A DNA stretch of 64,000 nucleotides, taken from an uncultured Acidobacteriia bacterium. GTDB taxonomy: Bacteria > Acidobacteriota > Terriglobia > Bryobacterales > Bryobacteraceae. Positions 5,564 to 14,165 of this stretch are shown piece by piece (positions within the stretch are counted from its first letter, which is position 1; every line of letters starts with the position of its first letter). The stretch lies in assembly GCA_903925975.1 (NCBI GenBank), contig CAIYHG010000086.1:1-64000 (forward strand), written 5' to 3'. Position numbers and translations under genes: made by a program. Under the pieces are notes generated by a model. The model made no database searches and was not told where the DNA came from. It worked only from the letters and a program-made list of their open reading frames with translations.

Positions 5564-6253
5564 CTAATTGGTCTTCCGCGGCGAATACTTGCTCAATATT
5601 GAAATCAACTGAGCGGCCATCTCGGGCGGTTTGACCCCGGTGGTCAGCACCTGCTTGTTCTCCCAAGGCTGGCCGTACATCGCCTTGTTCGAGTCGAGAT
5701 CGTTCCGCAGCGTGGCGCCTTCGAGCGAAACGCCGGCGAACAGCCCGCGGGAGCGCGACCACGATAGGATTTCGGCGCTGAGGAACGCGTCGGTCTGGGC
5801 CGAAGCGTGGCGGCCCACGGGACCCGCGGCCACGCTGGCGTCCCCGCCGAGAGTGAATTTGCTGGTAGTGAGGCGCTTCATGCCGCGCTCATTCATCACC
5901 AACAGGATCACATCGCTCGAAGAAACGCCGATTTGGAAACCGAAACTGCCTCCCTCGATGCGCACGGCTCCGGGGGCGCCCCAACCGTTGCCGCTCGCGG
6001 CGCGGCATACGGCGAATCCGCGGCCGTATTTCCCGCCGAGTCCCAAGGCCGCTTTCTTCATCCCCGGAACGAGAACGACGCAGGCGGATTTATCGAGCAA
6101 TTCCTGTGGGATGGCCTTATCCGGCGCCGCCATCACTTCCGAAAAGAGGGCCGTGGAATCGGACAAGCGCTCCACCGTATCGGTCTTGTCGTCAGCCGCA
6201 AATACAGGCGCGCTGGAAAGCGCCATCAACAGCGTCAAAGTAGTGAACCGCAT
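5564..6253 (-). CDS. SYLF-domain (Ysc84-like) lipid-binding protein
   Basis: The 229-residue protein has a signal peptide (LTLLMALSSAPVFA) followed by a SYLF domain. Visible family features are the helical lead IPQELLDKSACVVLVPGMKK, the glycine-rich segment LGLGGKYGRGFAVCR and the strand pattern GGSFGFQIGVSSSDVILLVMN, ending in FAGVSLEGATLRNDLDSNKA. Bacterial SYLF proteins are periplasmic or surface proteins thought to bind phosphoinositide-like lipids; the exact role here is unknown. It is the last gene of the minus-strand block, 158 bases after the small zinc protein, and may have its own promoter. Confidence 0.87.
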   Translation of the reverse strand: MRFTTLTLLMALSSAPVFAADDKTDTVERLSDSTALFSEVMAAPDKAIPQELLDKSACVVLVPGMKKAALGLGGKYGRGFAVCRAASGNGWGAPGAVRIEGGSFGFQIGVSSSDVILLVMNERGMKRLTTSKFTLGGDASVAAGPVGRHASAQTDAFLSAEILSWSRSRGLFAGVSLEGATLRNDLDSNKAMYGQPWENKQVLTTGVKPPEMAAQLISILSKYSPRKTN

Positions 6254-6411
6254 GGCCTAATGGTAGCGCGAAGGGACGGAACCGGAGCCCCGCAATTGGG
6301 GCAACCTGACCCATATCGATAGCGGGAGTACGTTAGACCGGCCCGCGGACGCCGCACGCGCCGATACTCCGTGCGAAGGCTTGGCGCCATGACCCGCGGC
6401 GGGCGGGCGCG

Positions 6412-6585
6412 CTAGCCCCGGGGTGTGGGTTTCTCGTCTTCTTCCACCAGTTCCCATTGGCCGCGGCCGCACATGTTCGAGCACTCGGGAAACTGCTGGC
6501 CGGAGGCGAAGCGTTCCGGCAACTTGCAGACCGTACACCAATAGATTCCCGTCTTCGGGGCGGTAACGCCGGGGCGATAAGTCAT
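6412..6585 (-). CDS. Small Cys-rich zinc-binding-like protein
   Basis: The 57-residue protein begins TYRPGVTAPKTGIYWCTVCK and later has CSNMC, so two cysteine pairs could form a small zinc knuckle. The opening RPGxxAPxxGIY resembles the YjzC-like small-protein family. The ATG at 6585 overlaps the TGA of the phosphatase gene (ATGA) and has AGGAG seven to eight bases upstream, so this start is preferred over an upstream in-frame one at 6615. The tail is acidic (ELVEEDE). Translational coupling to the phosphatase is likely; the function is not known. Confidence 0.7.
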   Translation of the reverse strand: MTYRPGVTAPKTGIYWCTVCKLPERFASGQQFPECSNMCGRGQWELVEEDEKPTPRG

Positions 6586-7247
6586 TTGCTGTCTCCTTTT
6601 ATGTCGAGAGCCCAATCCGCGAGTTGTTCCATGCGGTCTATGAGGATGTCGGGCGCCGGATCGTTGAGCGTTTCCGGCTGGAATCCGTAGGTGACGCCGC
6701 AGGCTCGCACTCGGGCGTTGCGGGCGGTCTGGATATCCACCCCGCTATCGCCGACCATGACCGTGCGTTCCCGTTCCACTCCAGTTTCGGCGCGGAGCGT
6801 GTCCACGCCTATCGGATGCGGCTTCTTGAATTCAAAACTGTTGCCGCCGTACACCTGAATGAAGCGCGGGCCGACGCCAAGCCCCTCCATAATCGCGCGG
6901 CTGATCCGGACGGGCTTATTCGTGAGCACGGCGAGCCGCTTACCGGCTGACCAAAGCCGGTCGAGCGTATCGCGCACCCCCGGATACAGAGTGGTATTGT
7001 CGAGCGCGTGCGCGCCGTAGTACTCCAGGAAGAATTCGAGGGCTTCCTGAATCTCAGCCTCGGCGGCCCGCTCGCCGAGCGCCCGCCGGATGAGCGCCGG
7101 AGCGCCGTTGCCGACGTACGAGTAGACGCGCTCGTTCTCGATGGGCGCCATGCGCATATGGGCGCGCGCCGCATTCACGGCGTGGGCGAGGTCGAGCCGG
7201 GAATCGATGAGCGTGCCGTCCAGGTCGAAGATGAGGAGGTCCATCAA
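6582..7247 (-). CDS. gph: HAD hydrolase, phosphoglycolate phosphatase-like
   Basis: The 221-residue enzyme belongs to HAD subfamily IA. Motif I (LLIFDLDGTLIDSR) supplies the nucleophile Asp and the acid/base Asp. A helical cap follows, then motif II near LAVLTNKPVRI, the motif III lysine in FEFKKPHP, and motif IV in VMVGDSGVDIQTARNA. This set fits Gph, which removes phosphate from 2-phosphoglycolate made during DNA repair or oxygenase reactions. HAD enzymes often accept several substrates, so the symbol is tentative. It sits 86 bases after the Fis-like gene and overlaps the small zinc protein by ATGA. Confidence 0.83.
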   Translation of the reverse strand: MMDLLIFDLDGTLIDSRLDLAHAVNAARAHMRMAPIENERVYSYVGNGAPALIRRALGERAAEAEIQEALEFFLEYYGAHALDNTTLYPGVRDTLDRLWSAGKRLAVLTNKPVRISRAIMEGLGVGPRFIQVYGGNSFEFKKPHPIGVDTLRAETGVERERTVMVGDSGVDIQTARNARVRACGVTYGFQPETLNDPAPDILIDRMEQLADWALDIKGDSK

Positions 7248-7333
7248 ACCAAGTTCGATCTTAGCAGTAACGTTTCGCGGTTCAGCCGGGGCCGCAGTTG
7301 GAGAAGCGGGCGGCCGGGCGGCGAAAGGCGGCG

Positions 7334-7603
7334 CTAGGCTGTCTTTTTCTTCCGCTTGCGCACCAAAGTGGCCCTGGCGGCGGGCTTGCGGCGGGGCCGA
7401 CCGTTGCCGAGCGCGTACTCCACCATCTTCCGCTGCAGCGTGTTCCGGTGAATGCCAAGGCGCTTGCTGGCGGCGGACTGATTCCCGCCCGAAGCCTTCA
7501 AAGCGCCATCGATCATGGCCATTTCCAGAACTTCGACCGCTTGCTCCAGGAAGATCCCTCCGGATAGCAGGTGCTGCACGAGCCCGTCAAATTTCTCGTT
7601 CAT
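7334..7603 (-). CDS. Fis-type helix-turn-helix DNA-binding protein
   Basis: The 89-residue protein has a C-terminal Fis-like helix-turn-helix (ALKASGGNQSAASKRLGIHR, then NTLQRKM), the same module that ends NtrC-type activators. An N-terminal helical part may dimerise, and a Lys/Arg-rich tail (RKRKKKTA) follows. The start ATG at 7603 lies inside the end of cvpA, a 17-base overlap, so coupling is likely. No receiver or AAA+ domain is present, so it acts alone as a nucleoid-associated or small regulatory protein. Its targets are unknown. Confidence 0.78.
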   Translation of the reverse strand: MNEKFDGLVQHLLSGGIFLEQAVEVLEMAMIDGALKASGGNQSAASKRLGIHRNTLQRKMVEYALGNGRPRRKPAARATLVRKRKKKTA

Positions 7604-8186
7604 TTTTCCCGTTTTTGTCCCTCTGCGCGCCGGGCGCACTTTCGATCCCTCGTTCGACGGCCTTCCCCCAAGCCGCCTTCACCTGCTGGTACCTCTTGCG
7701 GAAACCTTCCTTCAATTCATATGGCGCCATCGACGAGAGAAGACGCGACGCGTCCATGACGTAAGGCGCCGCTCGCGAGCGCACAACCGCGCTGGGCGGA
7801 TCTTCTCCGGGGGAGAACGCCATCACCGCCATCACGATCACCACGGCCACCAGCAGGCCGCGCGCCAAGCCGAACAGCGCTCCCAGCGCGTGATCGACAA
7901 TCGAAAGGCCGGTCACCTTCAAGAACTTTCCCAGGATAAAGCCGATCAGCGAGCCGATCAATATCACGCCGAGAAAAATCGCAAAAAAACCGACGAGATT
8001 CGACGCCGGCCGCGAACTAACGTAAGGCGTGACGAACGACCCGGCGGCGCCGTAGAACCAAATTCCGAGAATTAGTCCCAGCACTACCGAAACCAAGCCG
8101 ATGATTTCGCGAGTCAGACCCTTCCGGAAACTCGCCACCACGGACCACGCGAGAACGATGACCAGGACTATGTCCAGCCAGTTCAT
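7587..8186 (-). CDS. cvpA: CvpA-family inner-membrane protein
   Basis: The 199-residue protein has about four membrane segments (WLDIVLVIVLAWSVVASF, IIGLVSVVLGLILGIWFYG, LVGFFAIFLGVILIGSLIGF, LFGLARGLLVAVVIVMAVMA), with the family-typical HALGALFGLARGLL before the last helix. CvpA proteins are needed for colicin V export in E. coli and for envelope integrity in other bacteria. In E. coli cvpA precedes purF; here it follows purC and overlaps it by ATGA, so the link to purine genes is kept. The C-terminal region is soluble and charged. Confidence 0.88.
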   Translation of the reverse strand: MNWLDIVLVIVLAWSVVASFRKGLTREIIGLVSVVLGLILGIWFYGAAGSFVTPYVSSRPASNLVGFFAIFLGVILIGSLIGFILGKFLKVTGLSIVDHALGALFGLARGLLVAVVIVMAVMAFSPGEDPPSAVVRSRAAPYVMDASRLLSSMAPYELKEGFRKRYQQVKAAWGKAVERGIESAPGAQRDKNGKNEREI

Positions 8187-9082
8187 AGTTCGCGGCCGGT
8201 GATTATGCTGTATGCCTGCCTGTACTTGTCGGCGGTCTTGGCCGCGATTTCGTCCGGGAGCGAAGGAGCCGGCGGCTGCTTGTTCCAGCGGATCGACTCC
8301 AGATAGTCTCGGACGAATTGCTTGTCGAAGGATGCTTGCGGTCCGCCGGGCGCGTAGGTATCGGCCGGCCAGAAACGCGAGGAATCCGGCGTGAGCACCT
8401 CATCGCCGAGGGTCAATTCGTCGCCCACGAAACCGAACTCGAATTTCGTATCGGCGATGATGATGCCCTTGGTGGAGGCGTAGCGCGAAGCGCGGCTATA
8501 GATGTCAAGCGTGAGATCGCGCAAACGCGAGGCCAAGTCCTTGCCGATCATCGAGCAGACCGTCTCGAACGAAACGTTTTCGTCGTGGCCCGATTGCGCC
8601 TTCGTGGAGGGGGTGAAGATCGGCTCCGGCAACTGGCTGCTTTCCGTCAGACCGGCCGGCAGCTTGATGCCGCACACCGTGCCGCTCTGCCGGTATTCCT
8701 TCCAGCCGGACCCGGAAAGGTAGCCGCGCGCAACGCACTCCACGTCAACCATGCGGGCACGTTTCACGAGCATCGACCGGCCTTCCAACTGATCCCGGAA
8801 ATTGGCCAGCGGCGCGGGATATTCGTCCACATTCGCGGTCAGGAAGTGAGTCGGCACGACTCCCTTCAGAAAATCGAACCAGAAAATGGAAAGCTGGTTC
8901 AGCACCTTTCCTTTGTCGGGGATGCCGGTGCCCAGGATGTAGTCGAACGCGGAGATGCGGTCCGTGGCGATGATCAGCAGGCGGTCGCCCGCGCTGTATA
9001 CATCGCGAACCTTCCCGCGGGCGTGGCGTTCAAAGCCTGGGAGATCAGTTTCCAGAATGACCTGCTTCACAGTGGGGTTCAC
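8183..9082 (-). CDS. purC: SAICAR synthetase (purine biosynthesis)
   Basis: The enzyme joins CAIR and aspartate using ATP to make SAICAR in de novo purine synthesis. Signature segments are GKVRDVY at the N terminus, IIATDRISAFDYILGTGIPD, ECVARGYLSGSGWKEY, and IIIADTKFEFGF for the ATP/Mg site. The 299-residue length is typical of the longer, non-fused type. The start is GTG 9082 with GAGGA directly before it; a second GTG at 9067 is possible. An open frame continues to 9655, but that part is antisense to rnr and unlike the family. cvpA overlaps the stop by ATGA. Confidence 0.95.
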   Translation of the reverse strand: MNPTVKQVILETDLPGFERHARGKVRDVYSAGDRLLIIATDRISAFDYILGTGIPDKGKVLNQLSIFWFDFLKGVVPTHFLTANVDEYPAPLANFRDQLEGRSMLVKRARMVDVECVARGYLSGSGWKEYRQSGTVCGIKLPAGLTESSQLPEPIFTPSTKAQSGHDENVSFETVCSMIGKDLASRLRDLTLDIYSRASRYASTKGIIIADTKFEFGFVGDELTLGDEVLTPDSSRFWPADTYAPGGPQASFDKQFVRDYLESIRWNKQPPAPSLPDEIAAKTADKYRQAYSIITGREL

Positions 9083-9179
9083 GGTTCCTCGGGTTTTCAA
9101 TCGGGGGAGTAAACCAAATGATAACCCGTTCAGCGCCGAAGTCAATCGCGTTTGAAGCGGCGCACAGTAGAATCGGTGT

Positions 9180-11477
9180 ATGACCGACCGCGCCCTGCTG
9201 GAACACATCACCGGCTCGCCCCACGCGCGCGCGAATTTCAAGCAACTGGTACGGGAACTCGGCACGAAAGGCCCGGCGAGGGAAGAACTTGAGGCTGCGC
9301 TTTCGCGCCTCACGGACCGCGGCGAGCTTATTGAGACGCGCTCCGGGTATTTCACCGTGACCGCCCGCAGCCGGGAGTTCGCCATCGGGCGGCTGAACAT
9401 GCACCGAGACGGGTACGGATTCGTGATCCCGGAACGCCCGGTGGAGGGCCTGGCGGGCGACGTGTTCATTCCGCCCAACTCGGCCGAAAAGGCCATGCAT
9501 GGCGACCGTGTGCTGGTGCGGATGGGACGCATCGAGGCCGACGGGCGCGCGGACGGCGAAATCCTGCGCATTATCAACCGGGCACATCCGACAGTGGTAG
9601 GGGAATTCCGGATCGGCCGGCGCGGACAATTCGTCGTGCCGCACGACACGCGCATTCAGCAGTGGATCGAGATTCCCGCCGGGCTGGAATTTCCGCGCGA
9701 GGGTCCGGTAATTGATCGCATCGGCGTGGAGCCGCCCAAGGTTTCGTCCGTTGCGGAACTCAACGGGATGATCGTGAACGTGGAATTGTTGGAATTCCCG
9801 GAGCACGGCGCGGGCGCGGTGGGGCGCGTGGTCGAGATCCTGGGCCACCCCGACGATTTCGGCGTGGACGTGGAGGTGGTGATTCGCAAGCACCACCTGC
9901 CGCACCGGTTTCCCCCCGAGGTGGTGGCGCAGGCCGAGGGAGTGCCGAGCGCGATCTCACCCGAGGAACTCGAAGGCCGGCGCGACTTCCGCGGGATGGA
10001 CGTGGTTACCATCGACGGCGAAACGGCGCGCGATTTCGACGATGCCGTGTGGGTAGACCAGCTTCCGAACGGCAATTTCGCGCTGCACGTGCATATCGCC
10101 GACGTGAGCCACTACGTGCGCCCCGGAACGCCCATCGACGCGGAGGCGCGGCTGCGCGGAACGAGTGTGTATTTCCCCGACCGCGCAGTGCCCATGCTGC
10201 CGTTCGAGTTATCCACCAACATCTGTTCGCTGGTCCCGAAGGCGGACCGGCTGGTGCTCTCGGCGCTGCTCGAGATCGACCGGCAAGGCGATATCGCGGC
10301 CCAGGAGTTCACCCCTGGGGTGATCCGAAGCGTGGAGCGGATGACGTACACCAGCGTGCACCTCCTGCTGGAGGGCGATGCGGCAATGCGCGAACGCTAC
10401 CAGCCGCTAGTGCCGCGCTTCGAAATGATGCGCGAACTGGCGCTGCTGCTCAACCGCAAGCGCGTGCGCCGCGGGTCCATCGATTTCGACCTACCCGAAC
10501 CGCTGATCGAATTCGACGAGTGGGGCGAGATGATTGGAGTGAAACGCGCGCCGCGCAATTTCGCCCACCGCCTGATCGAAGAGTTCATGCTGGCCGCGAA
10601 CGAGGCCGTGGCTTCGCATCTGGAGCACACGGAGCTCGATTCGATCTTCCGCATCCACGAGAAGCCCGACCCCAAGCGCGTGATGGAATTCGAAGAAGTG
10701 GCCGCGCATTACGGGTATTCGCTGGGCGTGGGCGCGATCCCCGTGAAGAAGTTCGGCATCACGGACCGGCGGCGCGATGGCAGCAAGAAACGCCGCGACG
10801 TGGTTTTGCCCACGGGCGGCATGAACCTCTCGTCGCATCAATATCAGCGCCTGGTGGCCAAGATCGAGGGCAAGCCGGAGGAGCGGATTCTGAGCTACCT
10901 GATGCTGCGCTCGCTCAAGCAGGCGCGCTACAGCACGGAGAACGCCGGGCACTTCGCGCTGGCGGCGGAAACATATACGCACTTCACGTCACCCATAAGG
11001 CGATACCCGGATCTGATGATTCACCGGCTGCTGCGGGCGGCGCTGGCGGGCGATGTGGGGCGGTTGCCGCAAGGCGCCGCGCTCACCGCCATCGCCGAAG
11101 ACTGTTCGCAATCGGAGCGCCGCGCGGCAGATGCCGAGCGCGAGTTAGTGGAGTGGAAGAAAGTGCGCTTCATGTCCGATCGCGTGGGCGAGGATTTCGA
11201 TGCGCTCGTGATCAGCACCGCAAAATACGGCCTGTTCGTGGAGCTGGCGGACCTGTTCATCGAAGGACTCGTGCCGATCGACACGCTACCCGGCGACGAG
11301 TACGCGTATCAGGAGAACGTTCGTAAGGTGGTGGGGAAGCGCACGCGGCGCCAGTTCTCCATCGGGGACCGCGTGCGAGTGGTGCTGGACCGCGTGGACG
11401 CCAACGAACGCAAGTTGCAGTTTTCGCTGATGGAAGAGAACCGCGGCGCTCCACATCGCCGAAAGCTGCGCCGCTAA
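9180..11477 (+). CDS. rnr: Ribonuclease R
   Basis: This processive 3'-5' exoribonuclease degrades structured RNA and takes part in rRNA and tmRNA quality control. Its order is an N-terminal winged-helix-like region (residues 1-70), cold-shock RNA-binding domains, the RNB catalytic domain and a C-terminal S1 domain (about residues 670-750, YGLFVELADLFIEGLVPIDTL). The catalytic acidic cluster is in TIDGETARDFDDAV near residue 280. HFTSPIRRYPDLMIHRLL is the RNB signature. The 765 residues lie between RNase II and E. coli RNase R. It diverges from purC across 97 bases. The C terminus is basic (RRKLRR), as in other RNase R proteins. Confidence 0.95.
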   Translation: MTDRALLEHITGSPHARANFKQLVRELGTKGPAREELEAALSRLTDRGELIETRSGYFTVTARSREFAIGRLNMHRDGYGFVIPERPVEGLAGDVFIPPNSAEKAMHGDRVLVRMGRIEADGRADGEILRIINRAHPTVVGEFRIGRRGQFVVPHDTRIQQWIEIPAGLEFPREGPVIDRIGVEPPKVSSVAELNGMIVNVELLEFPEHGAGAVGRVVEILGHPDDFGVDVEVVIRKHHLPHRFPPEVVAQAEGVPSAISPEELEGRRDFRGMDVVTIDGETARDFDDAVWVDQLPNGNFALHVHIADVSHYVRPGTPIDAEARLRGTSVYFPDRAVPMLPFELSTNICSLVPKADRLVLSALLEIDRQGDIAAQEFTPGVIRSVERMTYTSVHLLLEGDAAMRERYQPLVPRFEMMRELALLLNRKRVRRGSIDFDLPEPLIEFDEWGEMIGVKRAPRNFAHRLIEEFMLAANEAVASHLEHTELDSIFRIHEKPDPKRVMEFEEVAAHYGYSLGVGAIPVKKFGITDRRRDGSKKRRDVVLPTGGMNLSSHQYQRLVAKIEGKPEERILSYLMLRSLKQARYSTENAGHFALAAETYTHFTSPIRRYPDLMIHRLLRAALAGDVGRLPQGAALTAIAEDCSQSERRAADAERELVEWKKVRFMSDRVGEDFDALVISTAKYGLFVELADLFIEGLVPIDTLPGDEYAYQENVRKVVGKRTRRQFSIGDRVRVVLDRVDANERKLQFSLMEENRGAPHRRKLRR

Positions 11478-11705: not shown

Positions 11706-14165
11706 ATGATCGCCTCCAGAACACCCCGGACGATTTGGGTCGAACTGACATCGAAGTGTCCTCTGGATTGCGTATTCTGCTCGCGCAAGACACGGCGCGG
11801 TGTGGGCGATCACATGCCCTACGAACTCTTCGAGTCCCTGGTGAGTCAGGTTTCCGATCCCCGCACCTTTCTGTTGAACTACTCGGGCGAATCCACGGTC
11901 TACCCCGAGTTGATCCCGGCAATCCGGTTGGCGCGCTCGACGGGCGCATTCGTCGAACTGGTTTCCGCGCTGGTGAATGTGCCCGAAGCGGCAAGCCGCG
12001 AGTTGTCTTCGAGCGGGTTGAACCGGCTGACCGTGTCGCTGCACACCACGAATGCCGCGCGGTACCGCGACATCTACCGCTACGGAAGTTTCGAGGAACT
12101 GCGCGCGCGACTGAGCTTATTGCTGGAGTCAAGGCACCGCAGCGACACGCCCTTGGCAGTGGACCTGGCGTTCGTGGCCATGGATCGAAACCTGGAGGAT
12201 CTGCCCAGTGTTGCAGCTTTCGCGGCGTCGATGGGACTGCGGAGCATCTCCGTCTTTCCGGTTTTGCGGCGCGACCAGATTCCAGAACGGTTCCCCAGCG
12301 AACTGACGGAACTTGGCGTCGCCCGGCCGGGGTTTCAGGAGAGGGTCGCGGCGGCAGTTAAAGCCGCGGCGAGCCACAGCCCGGAAGTTTCCATCCGCAT
12401 CTGCGATCCGTCATTCACTGTCACCGGCGCCACATTAGGAGAATCGCCCATCCCGTACCCCGGACCGCTGCCAGATGGCGCCAGCATTCATTCCTGCGAA
12501 CAGAACCCCTGGGAAACCGCCCATGTGCTGGCCAACGGCGACGTGGTGGCCTGCGAGCAACTGGACAAGATTCCTCTCGGAAATCTGGCCCGGCAATCGC
12601 TGTCGGAGATCTGGCGTGGCGAGGCGTACCGCGCATTCCGGGAGCAGTACGCGCGCGGCGCCACGCCCGAATGCCGTGCATGCCCTTGGAAGCTGGCGTA
12701 TCGCCCCGGCGCCGTGCAGAGTGAGATCATCGGCTCACGCGGCAGGAACGCGCAACTATGGCACGGCTGGCACGCGCCTGACGGCGAAGCGCACGTTTGG
12801 GCCAGCCAGCAGGCGTTGGCCGTAATCGCGCCGAGGGAGGGCTCGCGCGCGCTACGCCTCTCCGGCATGCTGCCTCCCGGGCCCCCGGGCAGTCCCAATG
12901 AGTTGGCGATCTCGTGCAATGGAGCGGAGGCCGCGCGAGTTGGGAACTCAGGCACGGACGTATCGCCTTTTGCGCTTGAGTTGCCGGTTTCTCCCAACGG
13001 AAACGGGCCGTGGAGGGTCGAGTTCCGAACGCGCCACATGTACCGCCCGAGCGAGCGCGGCGATGGGCCCGATCAGCGCGATCTGGGGTTTGCGCTGGGC
13101 CTGCTCGCCTCCCAGCCTTTCGTGGATCCGGAAGAAGTGGCGCGCCGGGAAAAGCTGCTGCGCCCGCTGCCTTACATCGTGCGTGGGATCGATGCGGCCG
13201 GCCGCGCGGCGGCGCGCTGCCTGCGGCACGGGCGGGCCGACGGCGGCAGACGGTTTGCTCCGGGGCTCTCCGTACTGATTCCCGAGCGTGACAATGCGGC
13301 GGAGTTGGCGGAGTGCCTGGCGAGCGTGCGCCAAGCCGCCGCCCGGCTGAGCGAACCAACTGAGGTGATCGTGCTGGTGAACGGTTCGCCCCCGTTCGAT
13401 TATGAGATGCTGCGCGCGCGTCACCCGGAAGCCCGATGGCGCTTCTTCAAAAAGCCTCTCGGGTTCGGCGGCGCGGTAAGGGCAGGATTGCGAGCTGTCC
13501 GCCACGACTGGACGTACCTGCTCAACAGCGACGTGGCGCTCGATGCGGAAGCGTTGGCCCAGTCCGCAGTTCACCGGCATGCCGGAATCTTTTCCATCGC
13601 GTCACGAATCCGGCTCAAAGACCCGACGAAATTTCAGGATGAAACCAACTGGACAAAGCTATTCATCGATGACGGCCTGGTGACCATTCACGATTGCATC
13701 GCGGATTTCGATGAGACGGTTCCGGGGTTCTATGCGGGGGGCGGAGCATCCCTGTTTCAGACGCGCCTGCTGCGGCAGTTCGCCCGCGTCTCCGCCTACG
13801 ACCCGTTCTACTGGGAGGACGTGGAATGGGGCTGGCGCGCGCGAAAGCTCGGCTACGGTTCGCTGTTCTGCCCCACGTCAGTTGCGCATCACACCCGCCG
13901 CTCGACGATCTCGCGAGCATACCCGCCCGAAGAAATCGAACGCATCTGGGCGCGTAACCGCTTGCTGTTTCAGTTACGCAATTTCACTGAGGCGGGGTCG
14001 CTCAGGCGAGTCGGAGAGGAACTGGCGCGCTCCGCAGGGATGCCCGCCCTGAATCTCTCCACGTTGTGGAAGATCGCGAACGGGCGTTTATGGAACCATC
14101 TCGCACCGGTTCCCGATAGCGGTGTGCTGGCGGTCTTGAACTCAGCCTTGAGCGCGCCGCGCTAG
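11706..14165 (+). CDS. Radical SAM / SPASM protein fused to a family 2 glycosyltransferase
   Basis: The 819-residue protein has three parts. Residues 1-330 form a radical SAM enzyme: CPLDCVFC (Cys18, 22, 25) binds the 4Fe-4S cluster, NYSGEST follows, and a SPASM-like cysteine set comes later (Cys near 264 and 281, CRACPW near 321). Residues 340-465 look like a beta-sandwich ending in MYRPSERGDGPDQRDLGF, a pattern seen in surface-polysaccharide enzymes. Residues 520-819 are a GT2 transferase with SVLIPERDNAAEL, LLNSDVALD and DPFYWEDVEWGWRARKLGYG. Known families suggest radical chemistry plus sugar transfer, perhaps on one cell-surface glycan or peptide; this is inference. Its stop codon shares a CTAG palindrome with the convergent gene. 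Confidence 0.82.
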   Translation: MIASRTPRTIWVELTSKCPLDCVFCSRKTRRGVGDHMPYELFESLVSQVSDPRTFLLNYSGESTVYPELIPAIRLARSTGAFVELVSALVNVPEAASRELSSSGLNRLTVSLHTTNAARYRDIYRYGSFEELRARLSLLLESRHRSDTPLAVDLAFVAMDRNLEDLPSVAAFAASMGLRSISVFPVLRRDQIPERFPSELTELGVARPGFQERVAAAVKAAASHSPEVSIRICDPSFTVTGATLGESPIPYPGPLPDGASIHSCEQNPWETAHVLANGDVVACEQLDKIPLGNLARQSLSEIWRGEAYRAFREQYARGATPECRACPWKLAYRPGAVQSEIIGSRGRNAQLWHGWHAPDGEAHVWASQQALAVIAPREGSRALRLSGMLPPGPPGSPNELAISCNGAEAARVGNSGTDVSPFALELPVSPNGNGPWRVEFRTRHMYRPSERGDGPDQRDLGFALGLLASQPFVDPEEVARREKLLRPLPYIVRGIDAAGRAAARCLRHGRADGGRRFAPGLSVLIPERDNAAELAECLASVRQAAARLSEPTEVIVLVNGSPPFDYEMLRARHPEARWRFFKKPLGFGGAVRAGLRAVRHDWTYLLNSDVALDAEALAQSAVHRHAGIFSIASRIRLKDPTKFQDETNWTKLFIDDGLVTIHDCIADFDETVPGFYAGGGASLFQTRLLRQFARVSAYDPFYWEDVEWGWRARKLGYGSLFCPTSVAHHTRRSTISRAYPPEEIERIWARNRLLFQLRNFTEAGSLRRVGEELARSAGMPALNLSTLWKIANGRLWNHLAPVPDSGVLAVLNSALSAPR

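Follow-up and report, generated by a model that had tools for sequence, protein, structure and literature searches.

What would a bacterium make with a radical SAM (rSAM) enzyme, a beta-sandwich and a family 2 glycosyltransferase (GT2) joined in one chain? A gene for such a protein lies in the window, the whole 64,000-nucleotide stretch of Acidobacteriia DNA analysed here. An earlier note on this sequence described the chain and proposed that radical modification and sugar transfer happen on the same product, a surface glycan or a peptide. Two questions follow: whether the fusion is genuine, and what its substrate may be. We find that the fusion is genuine. As to substrate, we lean towards a glycan-tailoring protein, probably a bifunctional enzyme pair in one chain, supplying an altered sugar for a cell-surface glycan.

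Three domains in one reading frame

The 819-aa frame at 11706-14165 (+) is unbroken throughout; an in-frame stop lies ~3 codons upstream of the ATG, and the open frame is 822 aa. A ribonuclease R-like gene (its name reads from sequence) flanks it on one side, and on the other is a convergent gene whose product reads as an outer-membrane barrel protein. The features of the gene are as follows.

11706..14165 (+): whole gene, rSAM-twitch / beta-sandwich / GT2 fusion, 819 aa (P0001; ORF list)
11706..12410 (+): radical SAM core, residues 1-235 (PF04055, AF2, VIA-align)
11757..11780 (+): CX3CX2C radical SAM [4Fe-4S] motif, C18/C22/C25, read from the sequence; conserved 25/27, 25/25 and 25/25
11874..11894 (+): LNYSGES motif, residues 57-63, near-invariant among relatives; it sits where the SAM-binding GGE motif would, a position we take from radical SAM enzymes generally
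12477..12740 (+): twitch-type auxiliary Fe-S domain, residues 258-345, predicted ligands C264, C283, C323 and C326 (PF13186; conservation; BtrN match)
12753..13118 (+): beta-sandwich domain, residues 350-471; all-beta in AF2, ending P-x(7)-D-x-R-x-L-G-F-A-L
13119..13259 (+): helical linker, residues 472-518; AF2 helices at 475-506
13260..13910 (+): GT-A glycosyltransferase 2 domain, residues 519-735 (PF13641, PF00535; VIA-align)
13524..13532 (+): DXD-like metal/nucleotide motif N607-S-D609 (LLNSD); N607 and D609 in 26/26
13815..13820 (+): E704-D705 pair (FYWEDVEW); both in 26/26
13926..14153 (+): C-terminal helical region, residues 741-816 (AF2), inside the GT-A structural alignments of 517-816

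Pfam and AF2 agree on this layout. Above the curated Pfam cut-offs are Radical_SAM (13-142, 4.6e-11), SPASM (264-327, 2.2e-15), Glyco_tranf_2_3 (519-735, 1.1e-10) and Glycos_transf_2 (3.3e-10). The AF2 model of the full 819-aa chain has a mean pLDDT of 91.4 and a pTM of 0.82 with an input of 35 homologous rows, against a pLDDT of only 36 with single-sequence input. It places, in order, a radical SAM barrel, an auxiliary domain, the all-beta domain, the helical linker, the GT-A domain from 519 and the C-terminal helices.

The N-terminal half belongs to the radical SAM superfamily: PF04055 scores 43.6 bits against a cut-off of 29.5, and the cluster motif is C18-x3-C22-x2-C25, exactly where the earlier note had placed it (residues 18-25). 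That note also saw SPASM-like cysteines further on. The cysteines are there; the SPASM assignment is not borne out. PF13186 passes at 57.1 bits, and the region it covers is also present in twitch domains. A two-cluster SPASM domain has about seven C-terminal cysteines, whereas a twitch domain is a truncated SPASM with four cysteine ligands and one cluster. In the family alignment C264, C283, C323 and C326 are each present in 26/26, and residues 1-345 hold no further conserved cysteine beyond the seven cluster ligands (the best is C233, 9/26). Because exactly four auxiliary cysteines are conserved, the domain is by sequence a one-cluster, BtrN-like twitch rather than a full SPASM. Indeed, the PDB sequence that best matches the auxiliary region is that of BtrN (E 8e-11), whose single auxiliary cluster sets the twitch type apart from two-cluster SPASM (PMC9012708). 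In VIA-align, residues 1-326 align with SuiB (Z 24.8, rmsd 3.5, 296 aligned), and the radical SAM half with DesII (Z 23.0) and BlsE (Z 22.1). Because these structural neighbours mix RiPP maturases (SkfB, SuiB) with sugar enzymes (DesII, BlsE), the fold by itself cannot name the substrate.

The C-terminal half is a complete GT2 domain with an acidic metal motif, as had been described, and the GT-A fold on which the earlier note staked its reading beforehand (residues 520-819) is present in the AF2 model and in VIA-align. Residues 517-816 align with ppGalNAcT2, a polypeptide GalNAc transferase (Z 24.9, rmsd 3.7, 286 aligned). Fold, DXD-like motif and Pfam score together place the domain in GT2 (GT-A). 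Its motifs N607-x-D609, E646-T and E704-D705 vary little or not at all across 26 rows; E704-D705 likely marks the GT2 catalytic base region, judging from other inverting GT2 enzymes.

Between the two catalytic parts lies the beta-rich segment, which AF2 models as all-beta over 350-471 and which ends in the PSERGDGPDQRDLGF motif reported earlier. No Pfam family matched it in any of 16 members, and a PDB sequence search with its profile returned nothing significant. In VIA-align no chain was listed for the beta domain alone; the matches were taken up by the radical SAM and GT-A parts, and hence this is no evidence of a new fold. A profile of the domain did pick up kin elsewhere, in the C-terminal part of proteins that look embedded in the membrane. 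They occur at L072 (1-1890, +), L073 (1471-3147, −) and L074 (873-2723, −), in proteins with a multi-pass membrane look that gave one weak PMT_2 match and one DUF6311 match. The beta-sandwich is an uncurated module of Acidobacteriota, probably associated with carbohydrates, and its role is probably to hold a glycan or to dock the two catalytic domains.

Fused, split and triple forms

Could the chain be a chance fusion of two unrelated genes, or an assembly artefact? The window assembly is fragmented (200 contigs, 86% complete), and a frameshift joining two separate genes had been named as a worry. Relatives of the gene speak to this. A scan of GTDB contigs found 28 loci: 13 intact rSAM-beta-GT2 fusions, all in assemblies besides the window, 2 fusions with broken frames, 1 truncated locus, 2 adjacent pairs of rSAM-beta and GT2 genes (L052, L058), 7 adjacent pairs of rSAM-beta and GT2-GT4 genes (L047, L055, L056, L057, L059, L061, L064) and 3 single chains with rSAM, GT2 and GT4 (L049, L060 and L062, the last without the beta domain). 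Two of the genomes that carry the fusion intact, G436 (3 contigs) and G576 (2 contigs), are near-complete. In pairs close enough for measurement, the rSAM, beta and GT2 parts have dN/dS values of 0.09-0.36, so each domain is under purifying selection; in the linker the ratio is 0.3-1.1 where measurable, a looser constraint. Because one-frame fusions recur elsewhere, occur in near-complete genomes and are under purifying selection, the fusion is genuine. With the same partners also adjacent in other lineages, an artefact is so improbable that we give it almost no weight.

The split forms tell us how the parts belong together. The two genes of a split pair mostly overlap or sit a few bases apart (9401/9398 in L047, 2789/2796 in L056, 9392/9393 in L058), and the beta domain travels with the rSAM gene, not with the glycosyltransferase gene. 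At L054, a separate GT2-GT4 gene at 5651-7897 (+) lies directly upstream of a frame-broken rSAM-beta-GT2 gene at 7911-10360. On the tree of the rSAM part the two-domain fusion takes three changes, though a single origin is possible, and the triple form takes at least two; judging from these sequences, fusion of rSAM and glycosyltransferase probably arose more than once. Adjacent genes and two- and three-part fusions thus uphold the pairing that the earlier note had proposed. That the radical chemistry and the sugar transfer act on one molecule, the other part of that proposal, we infer.

The gene is rare and patchy. Within the window's family it is found in 28/237 genomes and 21/76 genera, nearly always in single copy, and in a phylum-wide sample in 4/347 genomes. 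Split or rSAM-beta-GT2-GT4 forms are carried by other Acidobacteriota, a few Planctomycetota and a few Pseudomonadota. The records of L062, L059, L061 and L055 are labelled Dichelobacter, Cellvibrio, Lysobacterales and Planctomycetota; such labels suggest horizontal transfer or mis-binned contigs. Scans of viral contigs found no relative.

Gene neighbourhoods and the likely product

Where does the glycosyltransferase come from? Nearly every related genome encodes a GT2-GT4 protein of ~800 residues whose GT2 part is ~30-37% identical to that of the window. In L010 and L013 this protein directly adjoins an ABC ATPase that carries a C-terminal Wzt domain, and Wzt matches occur in several further GT2-GT4 loci. 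On the GT2 tree the rSAM-linked domains form one clade and the Wzt-linked GT2-GT4 group the other (SH-aLRT 100), which places the window's GT2 beside the Wzt-linked surface-polysaccharide clade, as its sister, rather than inside it. Because the clades are sisters and the neighbours are of Wzt type, the rSAM-linked GT2 is a relative of the surface-polysaccharide GT2-GT4 proteins. As a separate observation, GT2-GT4 proteins of ~800 aa are present in almost all sampled Bryobacterales and their kin (L010, L013, L018 and similar), with a Wzt-type ABC ATPase next to them in several loci whose flank is sufficiently long; the two look like a core surface-polysaccharide cluster of Bryobacterales and relatives.

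The earlier note had the gene standing alone. This is so in the window, where none of the partner genes seen in a neighbourhood comparison with relatives lies near it. It is not so for the relatives, around which sugar genes recur. Neighbourhoods of the rSAM gene include GT4 (12, mostly fused to GT2), a family that we call F1 (10), a WecB-type epimerase (7), a class I methyltransferase (7) and an aldo/keto reductase (4). The reductases (62-69% identity) lie upstream of the rSAM gene, either next to it or one gene further off (L057, L058, L063, L097), at loci where rSAM-beta is separate from GT2 or truncated (L063), and at none of the fusion loci. WecB is on the opposite strand in some loci. 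This, the lack of the reductase at fusion loci and the lack of partner genes around the window gene all count against our preferred reading. TylF- and CmcI-type sugar O-methyltransferases stand beside five fusions of the Bryobacterales type (L039, L043, L045, L095, L096). F1 proteins have 350-410 aa (~370), and those members that were run against Pfam and NCBIfam matched neither. They are found at L030 (227-1285, +), L047, L049, L055, L056, L057, L059, L061, L062, L064 and L097 (5967-7076, −), and carry invariant motifs such as DWR....F.FDLAM and RSD..AQ.LR.GC, which suggest a putative alpha/alpha-toroid enzyme.

Is the product a peptide instead? A RiPP route on the model of mycofactocin, with a ribosomal peptide altered by the rSAM domain (as by MftC) and glycosylated by GT2 (as by MftF), would suit the structural nearness of the rSAM half to SkfB, SuiB and PqqE, the weak NCBIfam matches to the mycofactocin rSAM (1.7e-6) and MftF (9.4e-5) models, and a family-F2 methyltransferase with distant likeness to a daptide RiPP methyltransferase. 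All RiPP models, however, score far under their cut-offs (for the mycofactocin equivalogs, 27.5 against 265 bits for the rSAM and 21.4 against 280 for MftF), and the auxiliary cysteines number four, not seven. The core starts near residue 10, and the ~10 residues ahead of it hold no N-terminal RRE. No adjacent precursor peptide gene was found beside the window gene or in the flanks of its relatives, and no small ORF within 800 bp of the gene is conserved across lineages; most small-ORF pairs seen there come from closely related genomes or lie over known genes. The RRE and adjacent precursor that define RiPP radical SAM maturases are thus both missing here, though a precursor gene at a distance is conceivable. 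Because there is no RRE, no cross-lineage small ORF and no RiPP maturase cut-off reached, and with sugar genes around the relatives, the peptide half of the earlier proposal is disfavoured; we regard this route as unlikely.

The remaining alternatives keep the sugar and change its fate. A secreted oligosaccharide or aminocyclitol-like product, with tailoring of the BtrN, AprD4 or DesII kind and a scaffold assembled by GT2, is the least implausible of the rivals, if still doubtful. The closest characterised sugar rSAM enzymes (BtrN, DesII, BlsE) belong to antibiotic pathways, TylF and CmcI are known from such pathways too, and the patchy occurrence in the window's family would fit. However, the surroundings of the gene showed no cassette of antibiotic type and no gene for resistance or export, and the GT2 is kin to the Wzt-linked surface-polysaccharide lineage. 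An rSAM sugar epimerase, changing one stereocentre before transfer with a cysteine as hydrogen donor, would also sit well among the sugar genes of the relatives, and radical SAM epimerases with an auxiliary cluster exist, for example NeoN. Against it, the lack of a conserved cysteine past the seven ligands in residues 1-345 argues against a cysteine donor; a non-cysteine donor is conceivable, and we consider the epimerase a long shot.

Hence we return to the surface glycan, favoured by the sister relation between the GT2 and the Wzt-linked GT2-GT4 proteins and by the sugar genes (WecB, GT4, TylF, CmcI, aldo/keto reductase) near the relatives. That the protein tailors a glycan rather than a peptide is, in our judgment, quite likely. 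How might it work? The twitch-type domain would generate a 5'-deoxyadenosyl radical that abstracts hydrogen from one of the carbons in a nucleotide- or lipid-linked sugar. An electron would then pass to the four-cysteine auxiliary cluster, or a substituent would be expelled, and the sugar would end up in a keto or deoxy form, on the pattern of BtrN or AprD4/AprD3; oxidation specifically of the BtrN kind is a tentative choice. Reduction of the ketone would fall to the aldo/keto reductase whose gene lies upstream in some lineages. The GT-A/GT2 domain, with its metal at N607-x-D609 and its base at E704/D705, would add the altered sugar, or a partner sugar, to a growing surface glycan. The window gene would then be a condensed solo form of a set comprising WecB, F1, aldo/keto reductase, rSAM-beta, GT2-GT4 and methyltransferase. 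Such a system could represent an undescribed class of surface glycan, in which a radical SAM domain rewrites a sugar within the chain that transfers it and a keto, deoxy, branched or cross-linked sugar enters the polysaccharide, with its own multi-gene set including the unclassified F1 and beta-sandwich families; we offer this as a speculation.

What are the implications? Sugar-editing radical SAM enzymes are known mainly from antibiotic pathways, and a conserved pair of rSAM and glycosyltransferase would bring radical chemistry into the assembly of bacterial surface glycans. The single chain is a directly testable enzyme. In addition, two uncurated families, the beta-sandwich and F1, are pointed out in the Acidobacteriota, a major phylum of soils about which little is understood.

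Comparison with known systems

The fused protein resembles several known systems in part. GlfT2, a mycobacterial and nocardial galactofuranosyltransferase, has an N-terminal beta domain, then a GT-A domain and C-terminal helices. It was the top Foldseek match of the full model (E 1.3e-15 over 576 columns), with an identity of 12-14% and a low TM-score of 0.25-0.33. GlfT2 lacks a radical SAM part and its beta domain has no sequence match here; a PDB search with the family profile gave no GlfT2 sequence match. The resemblance is a lead, drawn from the predicted model. The Wzt-linked GT2-GT4 proteins of Acidobacteriota share a homologous GT2 (over ~250 residues, with NND/NSD and REET motifs), but have no radical SAM part and form a separate, fully supported clade.

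Mycofactocin biosynthesis likewise pairs an enzyme of the radical SAM/SPASM kind with a GT2-type glycosyltransferase in one pathway. Its MftC is a two-cluster SPASM enzyme, and the two activities are encoded by separate genes and serve a peptide substrate, MftA. Oligo-glycosylation by MftF is known (PMC7491314).

Among sugar enzymes, the radical SAM diol dehydratase AprD4 of the apramycin pathway has a pseudodisaccharide as its substrate and the reductase AprD3 as its partner (PMC5461906). Some relatives, which have an aldo/keto reductase gene upstream, may follow the same logic of a sugar-editing radical SAM enzyme plus a reductase; in contrast, AprD3 is unfused, no glycosyltransferase is in the chain, and the window gene has no reductase gene next to it. 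BtrN oxidises an aminocyclitol using a four-cysteine auxiliary cluster, which has been proposed as the electron acceptor (PMC9012708). BtrN, a dehydrogenase from butirosin biosynthesis, and the window protein both combine a CX3CX2C motif with a four-cysteine auxiliary domain, and BtrN acts on a cyclitol hydroxyl; it is, however, a stand-alone enzyme of ~250 residues with neither beta-sandwich nor GT2, and the match is essentially to the auxiliary region. In the part of the literature on radical SAM and glycosyltransferase fusions that was covered, no description of the protein or its gene set was found. Neither catalytic domain falls outside the known superfamilies, and sugars are already established as radical SAM substrates; the new part would be the fused chain with its gene set.
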